From Opitutus sp. (GTDB taxonomy: Bacteria > Verrucomicrobiota > Verrucomicrobiae > Opitutales > Opitutaceae), in the NCBI GenBank assembly GCA_009695065.1, contig SIBR01000014.1:1-64000 (forward strand): a stretch of DNA of 64,000 nt, written 5' to 3'. The number at the start of each line of letters is the position of its first letter. The first letter of the stretch is position 1. The translations under genes and the position numbers were made by a program. Below the pieces are notes generated by a model, which saw nothing but the letters and a program-made list of their open reading frames with translations, did no database searches and was not told the DNA's origin. Below, piece by piece: positions 37,070 through 44,917 of this stretch.

Positions 37070-39301
37070 TCACACGCCCGGGTCAGCCGCAAATTCGCGG
37101 GCCCGCTTCAAGTCCGTCTTGCCCGTGCCCAGCATCGGAATCTGGTCCACGTGCCGGATCATCCGGGGAACCCAAAGATTGGGCGCACCCGCCGCGAGCA
37201 ACCGCGATCGCAGTTCGTCGATCGTGACCGGCCGCGTGGTGAGCAGGACGAGCGCCTCGCCCCTCGTCGCGTCGGGCAGGCCCACCACCAGAATCGTCGG
37301 GGCCTCGTTCGACTCCCAGCCGAAGGCCTGCAGGATCATCTGCTCGACGGTGCCGTGCGGCACCATCTCGCCGCCGATTTTTGAAAAACGCGAAAGCCGG
37401 CCCTCGATGAAGAGAAACCCGTCGTTGTCGAAGCGCCCCAGGTCGCCGGTGACAAACCAGCCGTCGCGAAACGCGGAGCGCGTCTTGTCCGGGTCGTTGA
37501 GATAGCCCTCGAACACATTCGCGCCGCGAAACAGCACGATGCCCGTGTCCGTCAGCGCCCGCTCCCCGCCCGTATCGGGATCGACGATGCGCGCCGTCAT
37601 GCCCGGCATCATCCGGCCGACCGAGCCGGCGCGCTTGCCGACCTGCGGCTCGTTCGTCGAGACCACCACGGGCGGATGCGGCTGGTTGATATTGGTGGCC
37701 GGGGTGGTCTCGGTGAGACCGTAGCCCTGCAGGATATCGAGGTGAAAGGTCTCCATGAACCCACGGGCCAGGTCCTCCGGCAGTCTCTCGGCGCCCGTGA
37801 CGACGAGATCGAGCGAAGCCAGCTCCGACGGATGGGCCCTTTTCAGGATCGGCCGGACAAAGGTCGGCGCCCCGAGAAGCACGGTCGCCTTCTCGTCGCG
37901 GATGGCCTCGATGACCTTGCGCGTCTCCAGCGGACTCGGCACCGTGACCACCCGGCAGCCACGCAGCATCGGATACCACAGCGTCACGGTGAAACCGAAG
38001 CTGTGAAACACGGGCAGGCAGCCGAGCAGCGAGCACGATTCGGGCAGGATGGAGAGCGAGGAAATCTGCGCGCAGTTCGCGAGCACGTTGCGGTGAGTCA
38101 GGACCACGCCCTTGGGCTCGCCCGAGCTGCCGCTGGTGAACAACAATCCCGCCTCCGCCCGGTCGCCGATCTTCGGCAGCCGCAACAGTCCGGCGCACCA
38201 CTGGTTCGGCAGCAACCAGGCGGCCGCGAGCCACGGCAGCATGGCCCGTTTGCCGCCCGCGGCGGCGATTTCGGTGCGCAGGTCGAGGGTGCGCGGTGGC
38301 CAGGGAAAGCCCGGCACCTTGGCGCGCAACGCATCGGCGGTGATCACGGTGGCCACGCCGGCGATGCGCAGGCTGGCCTCGATCGCCGCCCGCCCCGCGG
38401 TGAAATTCAGATTCACCGGCACCTTGCCCGCGACCATGACGGCGAGATTGGCGATGAAAGCCCCGGCGCCGGGCGGCAGGGCGATACCGACGCGATTTTC
38501 CGGTACGGTTCGGCGCAGCCGGCCGGCCAACGCCGCCGCCGCGGCAAAAATTTGCGCGCAGGTCAGCGGGCGGCGATCGGCGGTGCGATCGACGACGAGC
38601 AACCGGCCCGGATGCTTCGTCAGGGTGCGCACGCATTCGCGGCCGAGGTGGCGCCGCAACACGGGCCGTTCGCCAAACGCAATCGCCCCCAAGTCGAGCA
38701 GTTCCCGCCGCGCCCAGGCCGCGCTCACCTGCTCCGGCGGCGTCGGCCGGCCAAAAGCGATAAAGACGGGAGTCGGCAGGAGCCGGGGCGATTTCCAAAG
38801 GCACTTGTTGCCCGCAAACGAGAAGATCGAACCCCACAGCCCGTCGAGCGCCGCGGCCACCACCGGCACGCCCGCCTGCCGCGCCATCACCTCGAATCCC
38901 CTCTTGATCTCCATCAGCTGTCCCGTCCGGGAAATATGCCCTTCCGGGCAAATGCACACGACCTCCCCCTGGCGGAGGGCGCGCACCGCCGCCCGGATCG
39001 CCTCCGTCGGACGTTCCGGGGCCACCGGAATGCAGCCGCTGACGTCGAAGCAAAAATCGAAAAAACAGTGATGCCGGAGGCCGTTGTAACCGACGAACCG
39101 GATGGGTCGTGGACAGACCAGCTGGAGCACCACCACATCGACGTAAGAAATGTGGTTGATGACCAGCAACACGCCACCGCGGGCGGGGAAATTTTCCGTT
39201 CCACTGGCCCGGACACGATAAAGCAGCCGGGCGACGAAACGCGCCATCAGCTCGAGAAATAACGGGAGGGTCGAGCGCCGTCGAAACAGGGGTAGGGCCA
39301 T
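37070..39301 (-). CDS. Acyltransferase / acyl-ACP synthetase fusion (Aas-like)
   Basis: The 743-residue protein fuses two enzymes. Residues 1-210 are a PlsC-type lysophospholipid acyltransferase with the NHISYVD motif (an HX4D variant) and PEGHISRTG. Residues about 220-740 are an AMP-forming acyl-CoA/acyl-ACP synthetase with GLLFTSGSSGEPKGVVLTH, GYGLTETTPA, DGWFVTGDLGRFD and a C-terminal GTGKTDLKRA lysine. The same architecture in E. coli Aas recycles lysophosphatidylethanolamine at the inner membrane; there is no large transporter domain as in LplT-Aas fusions. The ATG at 39301 starts the acyltransferase; a TTG upstream is less likely. It follows the TOPRIM-like gene by 10 bp. Confidence 0.9.
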   Translation of the reverse strand: MALPLFRRRSTLPLFLELMARFVARLLYRVRASGTENFPARGGVLLVINHISYVDVVVLQLVCPRPIRFVGYNGLRHHCFFDFCFDVSGCIPVAPERPTEAIRAAVRALRQGEVVCICPEGHISRTGQLMEIKRGFEVMARQAGVPVVAAALDGLWGSIFSFAGNKCLWKSPRLLPTPVFIAFGRPTPPEQVSAAWARRELLDLGAIAFGERPVLRRHLGRECVRTLTKHPGRLLVVDRTADRRPLTCAQIFAAAAALAGRLRRTVPENRVGIALPPGAGAFIANLAVMVAGKVPVNLNFTAGRAAIEASLRIAGVATVITADALRAKVPGFPWPPRTLDLRTEIAAAGGKRAMLPWLAAAWLLPNQWCAGLLRLPKIGDRAEAGLLFTSGSSGEPKGVVLTHRNVLANCAQISSLSILPESCSLLGCLPVFHSFGFTVTLWYPMLRGCRVVTVPSPLETRKVIEAIRDEKATVLLGAPTFVRPILKRAHPSELASLDLVVTGAERLPEDLARGFMETFHLDILQGYGLTETTPATNINQPHPPVVVSTNEPQVGKRAGSVGRMMPGMTARIVDPDTGGERALTDTGIVLFRGANVFEGYLNDPDKTRSAFRDGWFVTGDLGRFDNDGFLFIEGRLSRFSKIGGEMVPHGTVEQMILQAFGWESNEAPTILVVGLPDATRGEALVLLTTRPVTIDELRSRLLAAGAPNLWVPRMIRHVDQIPMLGTGKTDLKRAREFAADPGV

Positions 39302-39311
39302 GGACGCCGTT

Positions 39312-39992
39312 TTATGCCGGTGAACTTGGAGGATGTTCAACCCGGATCTTGGTCTCCATAGCCGTCTTGAGCGCCCGCAAATCCTGCGCCAGCGCGTGGA
39401 ATCCCGGAAAATCGAACTCCAGCCGGCGCAGGTCGCGCCGGTGCCGCTCGACCTCGCGCAGCGCGCAGTGGATTTCGTGGGGCAAGCTTGGCCGGTCGGT
39501 GCCGTAGACGCGGAACTTCAACTGGGCGCGGGTATACGGCAGTCGTCCCGCCGCCTGGCCTGTGACCCACGCCGCCTCGGTCACGGAAGGTTCCCGGCCG
39601 CAAAGATACCACGCCTCGATCGCCGGCACCGCGATGCCCACCCCGCGCAGCACGCGCTCGCGGCCATGCGCCTTGGGCAGCTTCTTGGCCGTCTGGCGGA
39701 AAACGGCCCGAATCTGGCACATCCGGCACTGGGGATGAAAATAGCCCGGCGCGTCGTGGTCCCCGGTGTGAACCACGGAATCGTCGGAATCCACGACGAC
39801 CACAAGGGCGTCGGTGTCGGTGTTGAAATGCAAATGCCGGATGACCGCCGGCAACACCTGCACCACATTCGGCCAGCCCCGCGCGCGAAACCCCGGCGCC
39901 ACAAACTGCGGCCGGGCGCCATGGGCGGCCTCGACCAGCACGCGCAATGCGGCCTCATCCGCCGGCGACTCGCTCAGCAGCGCGAGCTTCAT
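39312..39992 (-). CDS. TOPRIM-like/DUF4276-type partner of the ATPase
   Basis: The 226-residue protein is not in a family I can name with certainty. It begins MKLALLSESPADEAALRVLV, with an N-terminal Glu, then has an acidic D-S-D-D in ALVVVVDSDDS and an IEAWYLCG motif near residue 130. This layout (early Glu, DxD strand, E-x-W motif) resembles TOPRIM-fold proteins of the RloB/DUF4276 type, which act as nucleases or effectors beside ATPases. There is also a CxxC (CRMC). Its ATG overlaps the stop of the ATPase gene (ATGA), with GAGGA immediately before, so the two are translationally coupled. Confidence 0.6.
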   Translation of the reverse strand: MKLALLSESPADEAALRVLVEAAHGARPQFVAPGFRARGWPNVVQVLPAVIRHLHFNTDTDALVVVVDSDDSVVHTGDHDAPGYFHPQCRMCQIRAVFRQTAKKLPKAHGRERVLRGVGIAVPAIEAWYLCGREPSVTEAAWVTGQAAGRLPYTRAQLKFRVYGTDRPSLPHEIHCALREVERHRRDLRRLEFDFPGFHALAQDLRALKTAMETKIRVEHPPSSPA

Positions 39993-40975
39993 TCCTCGTC
40001 CGGCACGCCGCCGAGGATGCCGCTATACCACATGTCGCCGAGCGAACCTTCGCGCAGGAGCTCGGGCAGGTCGGGCCGGTCGGCCAGTCGCTCGAAATGC
40101 GCCGCGCGCCCGTGTTTGTGCGAGATCACGATCTCCTCGGGATGCCCGCGGAACAGATCGAGGAGATAGGGCGAGTGGGTGGTTGCCACCACCTGCGTCG
40201 GTGGACGCGTCAGTCCGTGCGACGACGGATAACTCAGCCGATACAGCAGGTCCCGGACTTCGCGCAGCATCCGGGGGTGAATGCCCCGGTCGACCTCCTC
40301 GATGCAGATCAACCGCGGCGGCGCCGACTCGAACGCGAGCGCCAGCAGCGCGAGCAGGTAGAGCGTGCCCTGGGACAATTCATTGGCCGGCACCAGGCCG
40401 TTTTCCTCGAGCTCCAGTCCGAGTTCGACCTGACCATCCGGTCGCTCGACCAACTCCACCGATCGAAATTCCGAGGCGATCCGGCGCATCTCGGCCGTCA
40501 GCCCGGCAAAAGCCGCGGGATCGCGCTCGCGAATCTGCGCCAACATGGCGCTCAAGTTGCTCCCGTTACGGGTTAATTTCTCCCCGTTCTGCCGCGCCGA
40601 CGGCATACCCATCGCGACGTGATCGAGAGCGTAACTGCGCATGCCGGCGAGTTCGGCGCGCAACGCCGGCCAGCCCGCGGCATCGGGAGGCTCGATGCCG
40701 ATAAAATCGCAGGCCTCCTCTGCGACACACCCAAGTCGCGCCGAGATCGTTTCGTGCGGCGGGGAGAAATGGACGTCGATCTCCGGGCCGGCCTCCCTGG
40801 TCACGGTCCGCGCTTCGCCCGGCGGCAGCTTCGAGAGCGAGCGCAACATCAGGAACGCCTCGATCAGGCTGGTCTTGCCGCTGCCATTGGGCCCGATGAC
40901 GAGGTTGAAGGGCGCGAGCGTTAGGCTCGTGGCCCGCAGCGCCTTGAAATTTCGAAAAGCGATCGAAGCGATCAC
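39989..40975 (-). CDS. Compact AAA-15/AAA-21 type (RecF/SMC-like) ATPase
   Basis: The 328-residue protein is a minimal ABC-type head ATPase. Walker A is VIGPNGSGKTS (about 27-36), the signature-like motif is ELSQGTLYLLALL (199-211), Walker B is RLICIEEVDRGIHP (221-234) and the H-loop is VATTHSPYLLDLF (263-275). There is no long coiled coil between the halves. This is the OLD/AriA/RloA style of ATPase, and with the TOPRIM-like partner it looks like a two-gene defence or DNA-transaction module. It starts with GTG, 36 bp after the potA stop. Confidence 0.8.
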   Translation of the reverse strand: MIASIAFRNFKALRATSLTLAPFNLVIGPNGSGKTSLIEAFLMLRSLSKLPPGEARTVTREAGPEIDVHFSPPHETISARLGCVAEEACDFIGIEPPDAAGWPALRAELAGMRSYALDHVAMGMPSARQNGEKLTRNGSNLSAMLAQIRERDPAAFAGLTAEMRRIASEFRSVELVERPDGQVELGLELEENGLVPANELSQGTLYLLALLALAFESAPPRLICIEEVDRGIHPRMLREVRDLLYRLSYPSSHGLTRPPTQVVATTHSPYLLDLFRGHPEEIVISHKHGRAAHFERLADRPDLPELLREGSLGDMWYSGILGGVPDEE

Positions 40976-41011: not shown

Positions 41012-42100
41012 TCAAGCGTGCCCGCTCCGCACCAATACCAGGTCGTCCGCGTGCATCGAGACCCACACCCGATCGCCCGCATGCAGGGGCTCGCGCAGCG
41101 CACTCTCGTTCGCCACCACCGCCGTCAACCGCGTGCCCGCCAGGGTCGTTAGCACCAGCCGGTCGGTGGCACCCTTGAACGTCTCCTCCTCAATCCGCGC
41201 CTCAAAGGTGTTTTCACCGGGAAGCGGAACCTTGCTGACATGCACTTTCTCCGGACGGATCGCCAGCATCGCCCGGATGTCCGGCGCCGGCCATACGCCG
41301 GCGGAGAGTTGCAAAGTGAGTCCTCCGGCCACGCGCACGCGCACGCTGGCACCCTCGCGCGCAATCAACTCGGCTTCGAGTAGATTGGCCTTGCCGATGA
41401 ACTCCGCCGCGAACGCAGAGGCCGGCCTGTGATAGATTTCGTGCACGCCGGCGAGTTGCTCGATGCGCCCGGCGTGCATCAGTGCGATGCGGTCGCTCAT
41501 CGTCAGGGCCTCTTCCTGATCGTGCGTGACATAGATGAATGTGGTCCCGAGCTGGCGCTGCAGCCGTTTCAACTCGAGTTGCATCGCGTGCCGCAGACCC
41601 GCGTCGAGCGCGGACAACGGCTCGTCGAGGAGGAGCACCGCGGGCCGCGGCGCCAGTGCACGGGCCAGGGCCACGCGCTGGCGCTGACCCCCGGAAAGCT
41701 GATGGGGCTTCCGGTCCTCCAGGCCGGCAAGCGACACCAGGGCCACGGCCTCGGCTACCCGCGCCACGATTTCGGGCGCGGGCAGCCGCTGCATGCGCAG
41801 GCCGAACGCGACGTTGTCGCGTACGCTGAGATGCGGAAAGAGCGCATAGCTCTGGAAAACCTGGTTCACGTTACGCCGGTAGGGCGGGAGCTGCGTCACG
41901 TCCGCCCCGTCGAGCCACACCGTGCCACGCTCCGGAAGATCGAAGCCGGCGATCAACCGCAGCACGGTCGTCTTGCCGCAGCCGGAAGGGCCCAGCAACG
42001 TGAGAAATTCACCCGCGTAGATCGTCAGGCTGACGTCCTGGACGGCGGCCACGAGGCCGAAATGCTTCGTGACACGGCGCAGCTCGATCGTGGCGCTCAT
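41012..42100 (-). CDS. potA: Spermidine/putrescine ABC transporter ATP-binding protein PotA
   Basis: The 362-residue ATPase has Walker [10 protein letters not shown], the Q-loop [11 protein letters not shown], the signature [15 protein letters not shown], Walker [13 protein letters not shown] and the switch His in [14 protein letters not shown]-terminal TOBE domain (about 280-360) fits the PotA/CysA group that drives solute import. Its ATG overlaps the potB stop (ATGA). It closes a potC-D-B-A operon. Confidence 0.93.
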
Positions 42101-42945
42101 CGGCGCACCTCCCCAAAACGCCCGCCCCGGCGCTGGAGCAGCCAGTACGCCGCGACAAACAGCAGCAGGAAGATGACGCCGAGAGCCGCGCCGAACGGCT
42201 TGTCGCGGGCCTGGCCGACGAATTGATCCTGGATGACGTTGCCGATCATCGGCACGCGCGCCCCGCCCATGAGATCAGTGACCGCAAACATGCCGATGGC
42301 CGGCACGAAAACCATCAGGATACCCGCCAGGAGACCGGGCCGCGTGAGCGGCAGTACAATCTGGACGAAGGCGCGCCAGGGACCGCAGCCGAGATCCTGG
42401 GCCGTCTCGATCAGGGCGGGATCGAGTTTTTCCGCGCTGCCGTAAATCGGCAGGATCATGAACGGGAGATAAACGTAGACCAATCCGATGAGCACCGCCA
42501 CCGGCGTGTAAAGCAGTTCAAGCGGCGCGACGATTGCTCCCGCCGACAGCAACAGGCTATTGAGCAGTCCTTCCGACTTGAGGATCGTAATCCACGCGTA
42601 GGTGCGAATCAGAAAACTAGTCCAGAACGGGATCATGATCAGGAGCAACAGCCGGTTCCGCCAGGGCCCGCCGGCCCGGGCAATGAACCAGGCCACGGGA
42701 TAACCGAGGACCGCACAAATCACCGTCGTCAATCCGGCGTAGCCGAGCGACCGGCCGAAGACGTTCAAGTAAATCGGATCGAACACCCGGCGGTAATTTT
42801 CCCATGAGAAGGTGAAAATCACGCGACCCAGCTCGTCGCGTTCCGCGAAACTGTACGCGACGAGAATCCCGGCCGGCACGACGACGAACGCCACGAGCCA
42901 GAGCACCAGCGGAGCCAGCAGGAGCCAGAGGGAAAGTCGCTTCAT
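42097..42945 (-). CDS. potB: Spermidine/putrescine ABC transporter permease PotB
   Basis: The 282-residue permease has six predicted membrane helices, starting [22 protein letters not shown], and the EAA-like loop [23 protein letters not shown] that docks the ATPase. [12 protein letters not shown] is a family signature. It lies 88 bp downstream of potD and overlaps potA by 4 bp. Confidence 0.93.
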
Positions 42946-43033
42946 GGGCGCGGCGGGGGCGACGGGGCGGTTTCGCGGCGGCCCCCTGGTGCGCGACGCG
43001 GCGCCACCGGAGTAACTCGAATCGCGTGCGGGC

Positions 43034-44086
43034 TCATTGGGCGCTTTTCAAATCGGTCACGAGCTTGTCGATGTCGGCCGCCGCCTTCCCGATGTCGCGA
43101 AACGGCTGGAACGTTTCGAGTTTCGGATAACTGGCCGGATTGGCGAGTTGGGCCGGGGAAAGGAGTTTCCGCGCCGCGGCGTTGGGATTGGTGTAGGGAA
43201 ACTCATCGGAGATCAGCTTGCTGACGCCGGGCCGCAGCACGTAGTCGAGGAAGCGATGGGCGGCATCGACGTTCGTCGCCGCCACGGGGATCGCAAGCAC
43301 GTCCACGAACGGATGCACCCCCTCGGCCGGCAGCACATAGCTGAACTTCCGATGCTGCGCGATCAACCGCGCCGCCTCGCCGCTCCAGACCACGCCCAGG
43401 TCGACGTCGCCGTTGAGCAGGGGCGTCTTCGGGCTGTCGGAGTCGAATACCTTCACCAGCTTGAGCCAGGCGGCGACGAGCGGCCTGGCCTGCGCGAGCG
43501 CGGCGGGGGTGATCGCATTTGGATCGAGCCCGAGGGTGACGAGCGCCCAGCTCACGATCTCCCGGTTGTCGTTCACCACGACGATGCGATTTTTAAACTT
43601 CGTTTGAAACAGATCGCGAAAGCCGCGGATCGGCTCTTTCACGATGGCCGTGTTGACCACGATGCCCACCGTGCCGGTCATGTAGGGCACCGTGAATTTC
43701 TGCCCGGGATCGTGGGGCAGCTGCAAAAACTCCGGCGCGATATTCTTCAAGTTGGGCAGCTTCGCCAGATCGAGCGGCCGGAGCAGCCGGTGCTTGATCA
43801 GCGACTCGGCGATGTAGTCCGGCGGCTGCACGAGATCGAAGGCGGCGCCGCCGGAAAGGAGCTTGGACAGCATTTCCTCCCCCGAGGCGTAGGTGTCGTA
43901 GTTGACCTTGATGCCAGTCTCCCGCGTAAAGCCGGCGATGACGGCCTGGGGTACGTATTCGGACCACGCGAAAAGATTCAACTCCGCGGCGGCGCGCAGG
44001 CCGGGGCCGCCGCCGGCGGCGGCGGCCAGAAGCAGGAGCGTCAGCGCCAGGCGCCCATGAGGGATGCGGGGAAAAAACGCGGCCAT
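43034..44086 (-). CDS. potD: Spermidine/putrescine-binding periplasmic protein PotD
   Basis: The 350-residue protein has a signal peptide (hydrophobic LALTLLLLAAAAGG, then LRAAAE) and the PotD/PotF fold: LNLFAWSEYVPQAVIAGFTRETG, DLVQPPDYI, VPYMTGTVGIVVN and LGVVWSGEAARL. It delivers polyamines to PotBC. It begins 15 bp after potC. Confidence 0.93.
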   Translation of the reverse strand: MAAFFPRIPHGRLALTLLLLAAAAGGGPGLRAAAELNLFAWSEYVPQAVIAGFTRETGIKVNYDTYASGEEMLSKLLSGGAAFDLVQPPDYIAESLIKHRLLRPLDLAKLPNLKNIAPEFLQLPHDPGQKFTVPYMTGTVGIVVNTAIVKEPIRGFRDLFQTKFKNRIVVVNDNREIVSWALVTLGLDPNAITPAALAQARPLVAAWLKLVKVFDSDSPKTPLLNGDVDLGVVWSGEAARLIAQHRKFSYVLPAEGVHPFVDVLAIPVAATNVDAAHRFLDYVLRPGVSKLISDEFPYTNPNAAARKLLSPAQLANPASYPKLETFQPFRDIGKAAADIDKLVTDLKSAQ

Positions 44087-44101
44087 GAAGGGGAAGATAA
44101 A

Positions 44102-44917
44102 TCAGCGGATGGATTTCTTGAGCCACTCCGAGAAAACCACCGCCGCCAGGGTCGCGAGAATGAAAATCGCGGAGAGCGCGTTGAGCATCGGATTGAGGCC
44201 CACCTTGGCCATGCCGAAGATCCGCAACGGGAGGGTGGCCGACGCGGGACTCGCGGTGAAATACGTCACGATGACTTCGTCCATCGACAGCGTGAATGCC
44301 ATCAGGGCACCCGCGATGATCGCGGGGCGGAGGCTGGGCACGATCACCAGCCAGAACGCGCGGACCGGAGTTGCCCCGAGGTCCAGCGCCGCCTCTTCCA
44401 GCGCCGGGTCGAGTCCGGCGAGCCGCGCCTGCACGGCCAGCAGCACGAAGGGAAAGCAAAACGTGATATGCGCGAAAATCACCGTCGCGAATCCGAGCGG
44501 CAGTCCCACGGTGGCAAACATCACGAGCAGACTCACGCCCATGATGATTTCCGGCATCATCACGGGCACCCCGACGAGCGTTTGCACCAAGCGGAAGCCC
44601 CGAAAGTGGTAACGGTGCAGCACCCAGGCCCCGAGCGTGCCGAGGACCACGGATGCGGCGGTCGTCACCCCGGCGACAATCAGGCTGTTCCCCAGGGCGC
44701 GCATCAGCGGCGCGTGCGTCCACACCTCCCGGTACCATTCGAGTGTGAAGCGCTCCCAAACGATGTTGAGCCGCGACGAATTGAACGAATACACCACCAG
44801 CACGAAAATCGGCAGATAGAGGAAAACGAGCACCGCGGCCGTCCAACCTCCGAGCAGCAGGTGAAAAACGCGCGGGCCCGTCAGCGGATGGCGGGGTGGG
44901 GCGGAGTCGGGCGGCAT
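44102..44917 (-). CDS. potC: Spermidine/putrescine ABC transporter permease PotC
   Basis: The 271-residue permease has six predicted helices and the loop ALEEAALDLGATPVRAFWLVIVP that contacts PotA, plus FTLSMDEVIVTYF typical of PotC. It is the first gene of the potC-D-B-A operon, unlike the potABCD order in enterobacteria. Upstream lies pilC, with an 81-bp gap. Confidence 0.93.
   Translation of the reverse strand: MPPDSAPPRHPLTGPRVFHLLLGGWTAAVLVFLYLPIFVLVVYSFNSSRLNIVWERFTLEWYREVWTHAPLMRALGNSLIVAGVTTAASVVLGTLGAWVLHRYHFRGFRLVQTLVGVPVMMPEIIMGVSLLVMFATVGLPLGFATVIFAHITFCFPFVLLAVQARLAGLDPALEEAALDLGATPVRAFWLVIVPSLRPAIIAGALMAFTLSMDEVIVTYFTASPASATLPLRIFGMAKVGLNPMLNALSAIFILATLAAVVFSEWLKKSIR

Follow-up and report, generated by a model that had tools for sequence, protein, structure and literature searches.

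ATPase-TOPRIM pairs have been studied mostly as mobile defence modules. Here we describe two adjacent genes, A and B, on the minus strand of a 64,000-nucleotide stretch of an Opitutus sp. genome (contig SIBR01000014.1 of assembly GCA_009695065.1, positions 1 to 64,000; hereafter the window). We read the pair, with a probability of about 0.62, as a split OLD-like ATPase with a DUF4276-related, TOPRIM-like putative nuclease, which is resident and vertically inherited in Opitutaceae and whose present role may lie in defence or in maintenance. The architecture and the inheritance are the firm parts of this reading.

In OLD and PARIS, ABC ATPases are coupled to two-metal TOPRIM nucleases, and AriB cleaves tRNA once it is released by AriA (accessible text of PMC10568477 and PMC12409363). 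PARIS (AriA/AriB), a proposed class 4 OLD system, resembles A-B in having the ATPase and the TOPRIM-type effector on separate genes, and A matches AriA; B, however, aligns with DUF4276 instead, and the AriB model was not listed for B in a PADLOC scan with E-values up to 10. HEC-01, a PADLOC candidate system consisting of an ATPase and a DUF4276 protein, is like A-B in gene order (ATPase, then partner), in strand and in the overlap or adjacency of the two genes, and A matches HEC-01A while B aligns to DUF4276 at the profile level. The A-B pair differs from HEC-01 in that B is only weakly HEC-01B and carries an insert with invariant His and Cys residues, in that it is vertical, chromosomal and limited to one family among the genomes searched, and in that no restriction-modification genes were noted beside it in the window. 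Cran1, a class 5 OLD protein of Sulfolobales, is clade-restricted, vertically inherited, accompanied by a conserved neighbour and unlinked to known defence systems, as is A-B, and the accessible text of PMC12796447 makes it a precedent for a vertically inherited OLD protein outside defence. According to the same text, Cran1 is archaeal, holds both domains in one protein and could not be deleted, whereas A-B is bacterial, is divided over two genes and is lacking in some lineages. A literature search on DUF4276, HEC-01 and Opitutaceae with TOPRIM found no description of the A-B pair among the papers listed, and the term 'HEC' occurs 0 times in the accessible text of PMC8565338.

Architecture and conserved residues

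The features of the pair are given below, with residue counts taken from alignments of related proteins.

39989..40975, minus: gene A, compact AAA_21/RecF-like ATPase, 328 amino acids, GTG start
40871..40894, minus: Walker A GPNGSGKT (K34) of A; Lys in 88/89 aligned, 1 Arg, 3 gaps
40367..40378, minus: LSQG signature of A, residues 200-203; Gly203 92/92, Ser201 87/92
40289..40306, minus: Walker B CIEEVD of A, residues 224-229; E226 91/92, E227 87/92 with 5 Asp
40169..40180, minus: H-loop THSP of A, residues 266-269; His267 86/91 aligned, 1 gap
39989..39992, minus: ATGA start/stop overlap of A and B, 4 bases, from the open reading frame coordinates
39312..39992, minus: gene B, DUF4276-related, TOPRIM-like partner, 226 amino acids, ATG start
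39969..39971, minus: Glu8 of B, TOPRIM-type, just after strand 1 (strand 2-6 of the structure model); 336/336 aligned, 1 gap
39780..39791, minus: D68-S-D70-D71 of B, TOPRIM-type DxD; D68 and D70 337/337, D71 333/337 with 4 Glu
39717..39770, minus: H75/H79/H86/C89/C92 of B, putative metal-binding insert; H75, H79, C89 and C92 337/337, H86 328/337
39609..39620, minus: I125-E126-A127-W128 motif of B (within IEAWYLCG); E126 and W128 337/337

A first-pass annotation, made from the letters of the window, had described an ATGA-overlapping pair of 328 and 226 residues and likened it to OLD-, PARIS- and RloAB-type modules, with a RecF/SMC-type ATPase and a TOPRIM-like partner. Both open reading frames were confirmed, and motifs and profiles support a compact ATPase with a TOPRIM-like partner as found in split OLD-type modules. 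All four ATPase motifs that it had named (Walker A, signature, Walker B and H-loop) are present in A, and the early Glu, DxDD and IEAWYLCG of the partner correspond to E8, D68-S-D70-D71 and E126 of B.

Of 92 related loci, 91 carry A upstream of B and in the same orientation, with a spacing that ranged from a 4-base overlap to a 160-base gap and with the exact 4-base overlap in 57 of the 91 pairs; at the one exception (L027) A was not found. These loci comprise 80 from a contig scan and 12 from a second set, which may share genomes. The scan looked for exact matches to short peptides from close relatives (80 of 90 loci were kept) and therefore says little about distant relatives. In protein clusters, 3005 matched A at E<=1e-10 and 2134 matched B at E<=0.01, the best 120 of each being inspected. 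The median ratio of non-synonymous to synonymous substitution rates (dN/dS) was 0.121 for A and 0.107 for B, compared with 0.081 for gene C, the next gene downstream (see below), over the 40 closest pairs as ranked by C. A and B are under purifying selection. Given the many cluster matches, the low dN/dS and the constant gene order, they are not chance open reading frames.

Gene A matched AAA_21 in Pfam (4.8e-31), and its best PADLOC scores were to the defence-model ATPases HEC-01A (1.8e-42), PDC-M07A and AriA (1.1e-30). With Walker A, signature and Walker B intact, A has what is expected of the AAA_21/AAA_15-type ATPase of a HEC-01-like pair. An hhalign comparison with four plasmid ATPases gave a probability of 100 over 311 columns, and the AlphaFold2 (AF2) model had a predicted local distance difference test score (pLDDT) of 90.6 and a predicted template modelling score (pTM) of 0.90. 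At one related locus (L067 5865-10001) an AsmA-like gene and A form a single stop-free open reading frame of 1378 amino acids; this is probably a chance in-frame read-through and not a genuine AsmA-A fusion.

Gene B had no significant match in Pfam, NCBIfam, PHROGs or PDB sequences. The curated DUF4276 model, PF14103, was not listed in a Pfam scan up to E 10, a kind of listing that is incomplete because HMMER filters remove most matches above about 0.1; we therefore term B DUF4276-related and not a DUF4276 member. Two HEC-01B models were the only PADLOC models listed for it, with a weak match (0.0058). Profile comparison was more informative about the 226-residue protein, for which the first-pass annotation had suggested TOPRIM, DUF4276 and RloB among its targets; of these three, DUF4276 fitted best. 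The hhalign probability against DUF4276 was 71 with a 97-row B profile, 61 with the trimmed profile (a score reached by 0 of 100 column shuffles) and 85 with a 337-row profile (reached by 0 of 60 shuffles). The row sets contain duplicates (L081-L084 are the loci of L036, L032, L007 and L075), and some of their P-series proteins may equal locus proteins. Against the four plasmid DUF4276 members alone, homology of the B profile was not obtained. RloB (PF13707) was rejected as the nearest family, its scores being near chance (2/100 and 1/60 shuffles as high), although its DxD and PxFExWLL motif fall opposite DxD and PAIEAWYL of B; OLD TOPRIM (PF20469) was likewise near chance (4/100 and 3/60) and was rejected too. 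B thus appears from its profiles to be a divergent DUF4276-related family that is not picked up by Pfam, NCBIfam or PHROG models.

In the profile alignment, Glu8, Asp68-x-Asp70 and the IEAW Glu126 of B are in register with DUF4276. IEAW aligns with FEAL of DUF4276, and LEAW or IEAW occurs in some DUF4276 proteins. B has the conserved Glu and the DxD that characterise the acidic residues of OLD and TOPRIM proteins. In the AF2 model (pLDDT 86.2, pTM 0.83), whose residue numbers omit M1 and are one lower than those used elsewhere, the DxD lies at the end of strand 61-67. The His and Cys residues that follow are nearly or fully invariant in B, and CxxC was absent from all 17 DUF4276 proteins examined, two of them short pieces; together these observations suggest that the B family has a metal-binding insert of its own, which follows the DxD strand. 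The metal may be zinc. A Foldseek search of the B model against viral models returned nothing at E<=0.001, and structural matches to lumazine synthase, an Argonaute MID domain and an esterase were set aside as generic alpha/beta similarity.

The same arrangement recurs where DUF4276 itself is found. Among 13 Verrucomicrobiota loci that were found via DUF4276 alone (from 8 genomes; L096 looks fragmentary), 12 have an A-like ATPase immediately before DUF4276 and in the same orientation, and at the 13th (L094) DUF4276 lies near a contig end. DUF4276 was present in 8 of 115 Verrucomicrobiota genomes, and all three HEC-01B matches coincided with DUF4276 matches. Seven plasmid records contained relatives of A (24-36% identity), and DUF4276 came next after the ATPase in each of the four plasmid regions opened; as these loci were found through A, they are not an independent sample. 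Across 16 DUF4276 loci the E-values of the A hidden Markov model ranged from 1.1e-37 to 7.4e-17. With an ATPase directly upstream of DUF4276 in these relatives, B occupies the position of DUF4276, and the comparison supports an A-B architecture that is already known as the ATPase + DUF4276 pair (HEC-01).

On the plasmids, the order is methyltransferase, ATPase, DUF4276, helicase in two from Aeromonas, type I restriction genes flank the pair in one from Meiothermus, and a Piscirickettsia plasmid has the ATPase and DUF4276 without restriction-modification-like genes. The pairs inside restriction-modification-like operons on the Aeromonas and Meiothermus plasmids are L265 3962-5756, L267 3491-5285 and L268 3431-5328. 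A literature search on DUF4276 came up empty, and what such nested pairs do may not have been described yet.

Distribution and inheritance in Opitutaceae

RecA and the gene that follows B serve here for comparison.

37070..39301, minus: gene C, acyltransferase + AMP-binding (Aas-like); Pfam Acyltransferase 8.2e-24, AMP-binding 3.3e-66

A match to B was found in 127 of 200 Opitutaceae genomes, one per genome except in G190, where B is divided between two contigs and each part gives a match. In the same genomes, drawn from the family of G001 (Opitutaceae bacterium EW11, the genome of L036), RecA was found in 182 and C in 180 (E<=1e-80). A sample of 387 Verrucomicrobiota genomes yielded 27 strong B matches, every one of them in a genome shared with the Opitutaceae draw, and 5 marginal pieces (E 0.0016-0.009); at most 15 candidates per genome were scored in the family draw and at most 7 in the phylum draw. 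With a divergent B member as query, 1759 clusters matched (best 120 inspected). The organism names among the listed B clusters were Opitutaceae, Opitutales, Opitutus, Verrucomicrobia(ota), Rariglobus and Cephaloticoccus, the last two of which we take to be Opitutaceae; most rows carried no organism. The titles of the 80 scanned loci are similar except for one 'bacterium' (L026) and one Akkermansia (L073). The latter, titled as an Akkermansia muciniphila metagenome-assembled genome, bears the Opitutaceae-type pair and is probably mislabelled. B had no match in plasmid records, where the search did find relatives of A, or in phage records and viral contigs, for which there was no equivalent positive control.

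Pairwise distances of A and B follow those of RecA. In 20 genomes, with the reading frame of RecA set by its Walker motif, the distance correlation was 0.857 between RecA and A, 0.819 between RecA and B and 0.830 between A and B, and in each case 0 of 2000 permutations was as high. The mean distance was 0.341 for B (20 genomes) and 0.347 for C (17 genomes). On a RecA tree of 79 genomes (40 with and 39 without B, chosen from those with listed RecA places and not at random; L215 was left out, its RecA motif not being found), the presence of B required 12 changes, compared with 26.8 in shuffles, of which 0 of 500 were as low. The horizontal or patchy spread and the mobile elements of a mobile system were not seen for A-B, the absences being clustered and not scattered. 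The GC content was 0.657 for A, 0.671 for B and 0.672 for C against 0.642 for the window, and so gives no mark of foreign origin. Inheritance of the pair in Opitutaceae is vertical, mostly at one chromosomal place whose surroundings (envelope or transport genes and gene C) are largely conserved.

Some absences of B may reflect incomplete assemblies. Others are clean: 58 of the 73 genomes that lack a B match still match C, and A and B were both undetected in the fetched stretch of all 20 C neighbourhoods opened from B-lacking genomes, which had been chosen because a place for C was listed. At L153 and L160 pot-like genes run directly into C, and at L145 a gene that matches AsmA weakly (below the Pfam cut-off) does so; with these neighbours running straight into C, the pair is cleanly absent there. 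In a deep clade of 17 genomes B occurs in G035 alone. This clade may never have had B; loss rather than a failure to gain it would be the other reading for the deepest clade.

Possible roles of the pair

The translation of A and B would be coupled. As in OLD and PARIS proteins, from which the analogy is drawn, A may bind and hydrolyse ATP as a dimer and hold or gate B, which on a signal would be freed to cut nucleic acid at a metal site formed by E8, D68 and D70. The H75/H79/C89/C92 cluster would probably provide structural zinc or serve substrate choice. A-B is most likely an ATP-gated putative nuclease that has been made resident; both the nuclease activity of B and the gating by A are drawn from these analogies, and the module would have moved from a mobile to a resident state. 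A-B may represent a mobile defence module that has settled and has perhaps taken on a new use.

The first-pass annotation had ranked the pair as the best candidate in the window for an undescribed defence system. This rank is not upheld, since the same architecture is known as ATPase + DUF4276 and the pair is vertical in a largely conserved neighbourhood; 'new defence system' is unproven for A-B. Its remark that the pair sits in no obvious defence island held: when 118 of the 335 representatives of neighbour clusters, a set that includes some antisense open reading frames, were scanned with PADLOC, matches at E<=1e-10 were few (AbiEi models in 1 protein, mad3 in 2, and mad2, mad8, LmuB and GajA in 1 each). 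That annotation had also regarded conservation with pot or pil genes, away from defence genes, as speaking against a defence role. The vertical inheritance, the conserved neighbourhood and the few defence matches agree in part with this pattern, whereas the commonest neighbour is C and pot genes adjoin A in some loci only.

A working anti-phage (abortive) system of the PARIS or HEC-01 type that has become chromosomally stable in Opitutaceae falls a little short of an even chance. It would account for the best scores of A, all to HEC-01A, PDC-M07A and AriA, for the invariance of the catalytic-type residues of B, for relatives inside restriction-modification-like operons on plasmids and for the lack of the pair in several lineages. 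The divergence of A and B in step with RecA, the largely conserved neighbourhood, the failure to find B in plasmids, phages or viral contigs and the few defence-model matches among the 118 neighbour proteins all weigh against it; vertical inheritance and a conserved neighbourhood argue against a typical mobile defence system. The pattern of clade restriction, vertical inheritance, conserved neighbour and absent defence linkage is that of archaeal Cran1 (accessible text of PMC12796447), and B diverges about as much as its metabolic neighbour C; a domesticated module outside defence, with a part in the cell cycle or in the maintenance of DNA or RNA, is accordingly possible, if on balance doubtful. 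The pair is, however, not essential to the family, as all 20 B-lacking contigs keep the neighbourhood without A-B, and Cran1, by contrast, could not be deleted (PMC12796447, accessible text). A more specific version is tentative and rather improbable: Opitutaceae would have domesticated a split OLD-like module for cellular work outside defence, for instance quality control of the genome or of RNA, and its putative nuclease would have gained a new metal-binding insert, which would make A-B the two-gene bacterial counterpart of Cran1.

A functional operon of A, B and C that serves membrane lipid or envelope metabolism, and in which A-B would regulate C, is very improbable. B and C are 10 bases apart in the window, C was found in 78 of the 92 loci (on the strand of B in 74), and envelope-type genes occur around the pair (partly judged by eye). 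Most genomes that lack a B match (58 of 73), however, keep a match to C, which rules out A+B+C as one functional unit as the main explanation; C shares the strand of B and starts no more than 1 kb downstream of it in just 49 of 78 loci and lies on the opposite strand in 4, and MarR and DUF2339 genes replace it after B in some relatives. C is probably a frequent neighbour and not part of the A-B module.

Returning to the resident putative nuclease, the signal could be phage infection or DNA or cell stress, and we slightly favour a part of the resident pair in defence or in a stress response, rather than in essential housekeeping, because some lineages do without the pair. A-B shares the clade restriction and inheritance of Cran1 and yet is dispensable in some lineages, which puts defence and cellular roles close together. 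The pair is widespread and vertical in one bacterial family, is under purifying selection and has invariant catalytic-type residues and clean natural absences. These properties make it testable, so that recruitment of ATPase-TOPRIM modules to cellular work, or their persistence as resident immunity, can be tested directly.

Neighbouring genes and minor observations

The first-pass annotation had noted a polyamine operon beside the pair, which is borne out. It is listed here for context.

41012..44917, minus: pot-like ABC transporter operon directly upstream of A; Pfam matches, four genes

A starts 36 bases downstream of the end of the ABC ATPase gene of this operon. A pot-type ATPase gene was matched in 20 of the 80 scanned loci, usually just upstream of A, and other flanking genes of related loci, identified partly by eye, resemble efflux, TolC-type and oxidase genes. 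Gene C, a third gene absent from the first-pass annotation, has its likely ATG at 39301, 10 bases after B; in several of the loci that lack C the sequence stops shortly after B. At a divergent relative (L133 9680-13243) a MarR regulator and then a DUF2339 membrane protein follow B, and a gene family of the same length and place after B in 13 loci is probably the same as that of L133. An antisense open reading frame of 278 amino acids (window 39333-40169, plus strand) runs over B and A and has counterparts in 72 of the 80 scanned loci; it is probably a by-product of GC-rich codon use.
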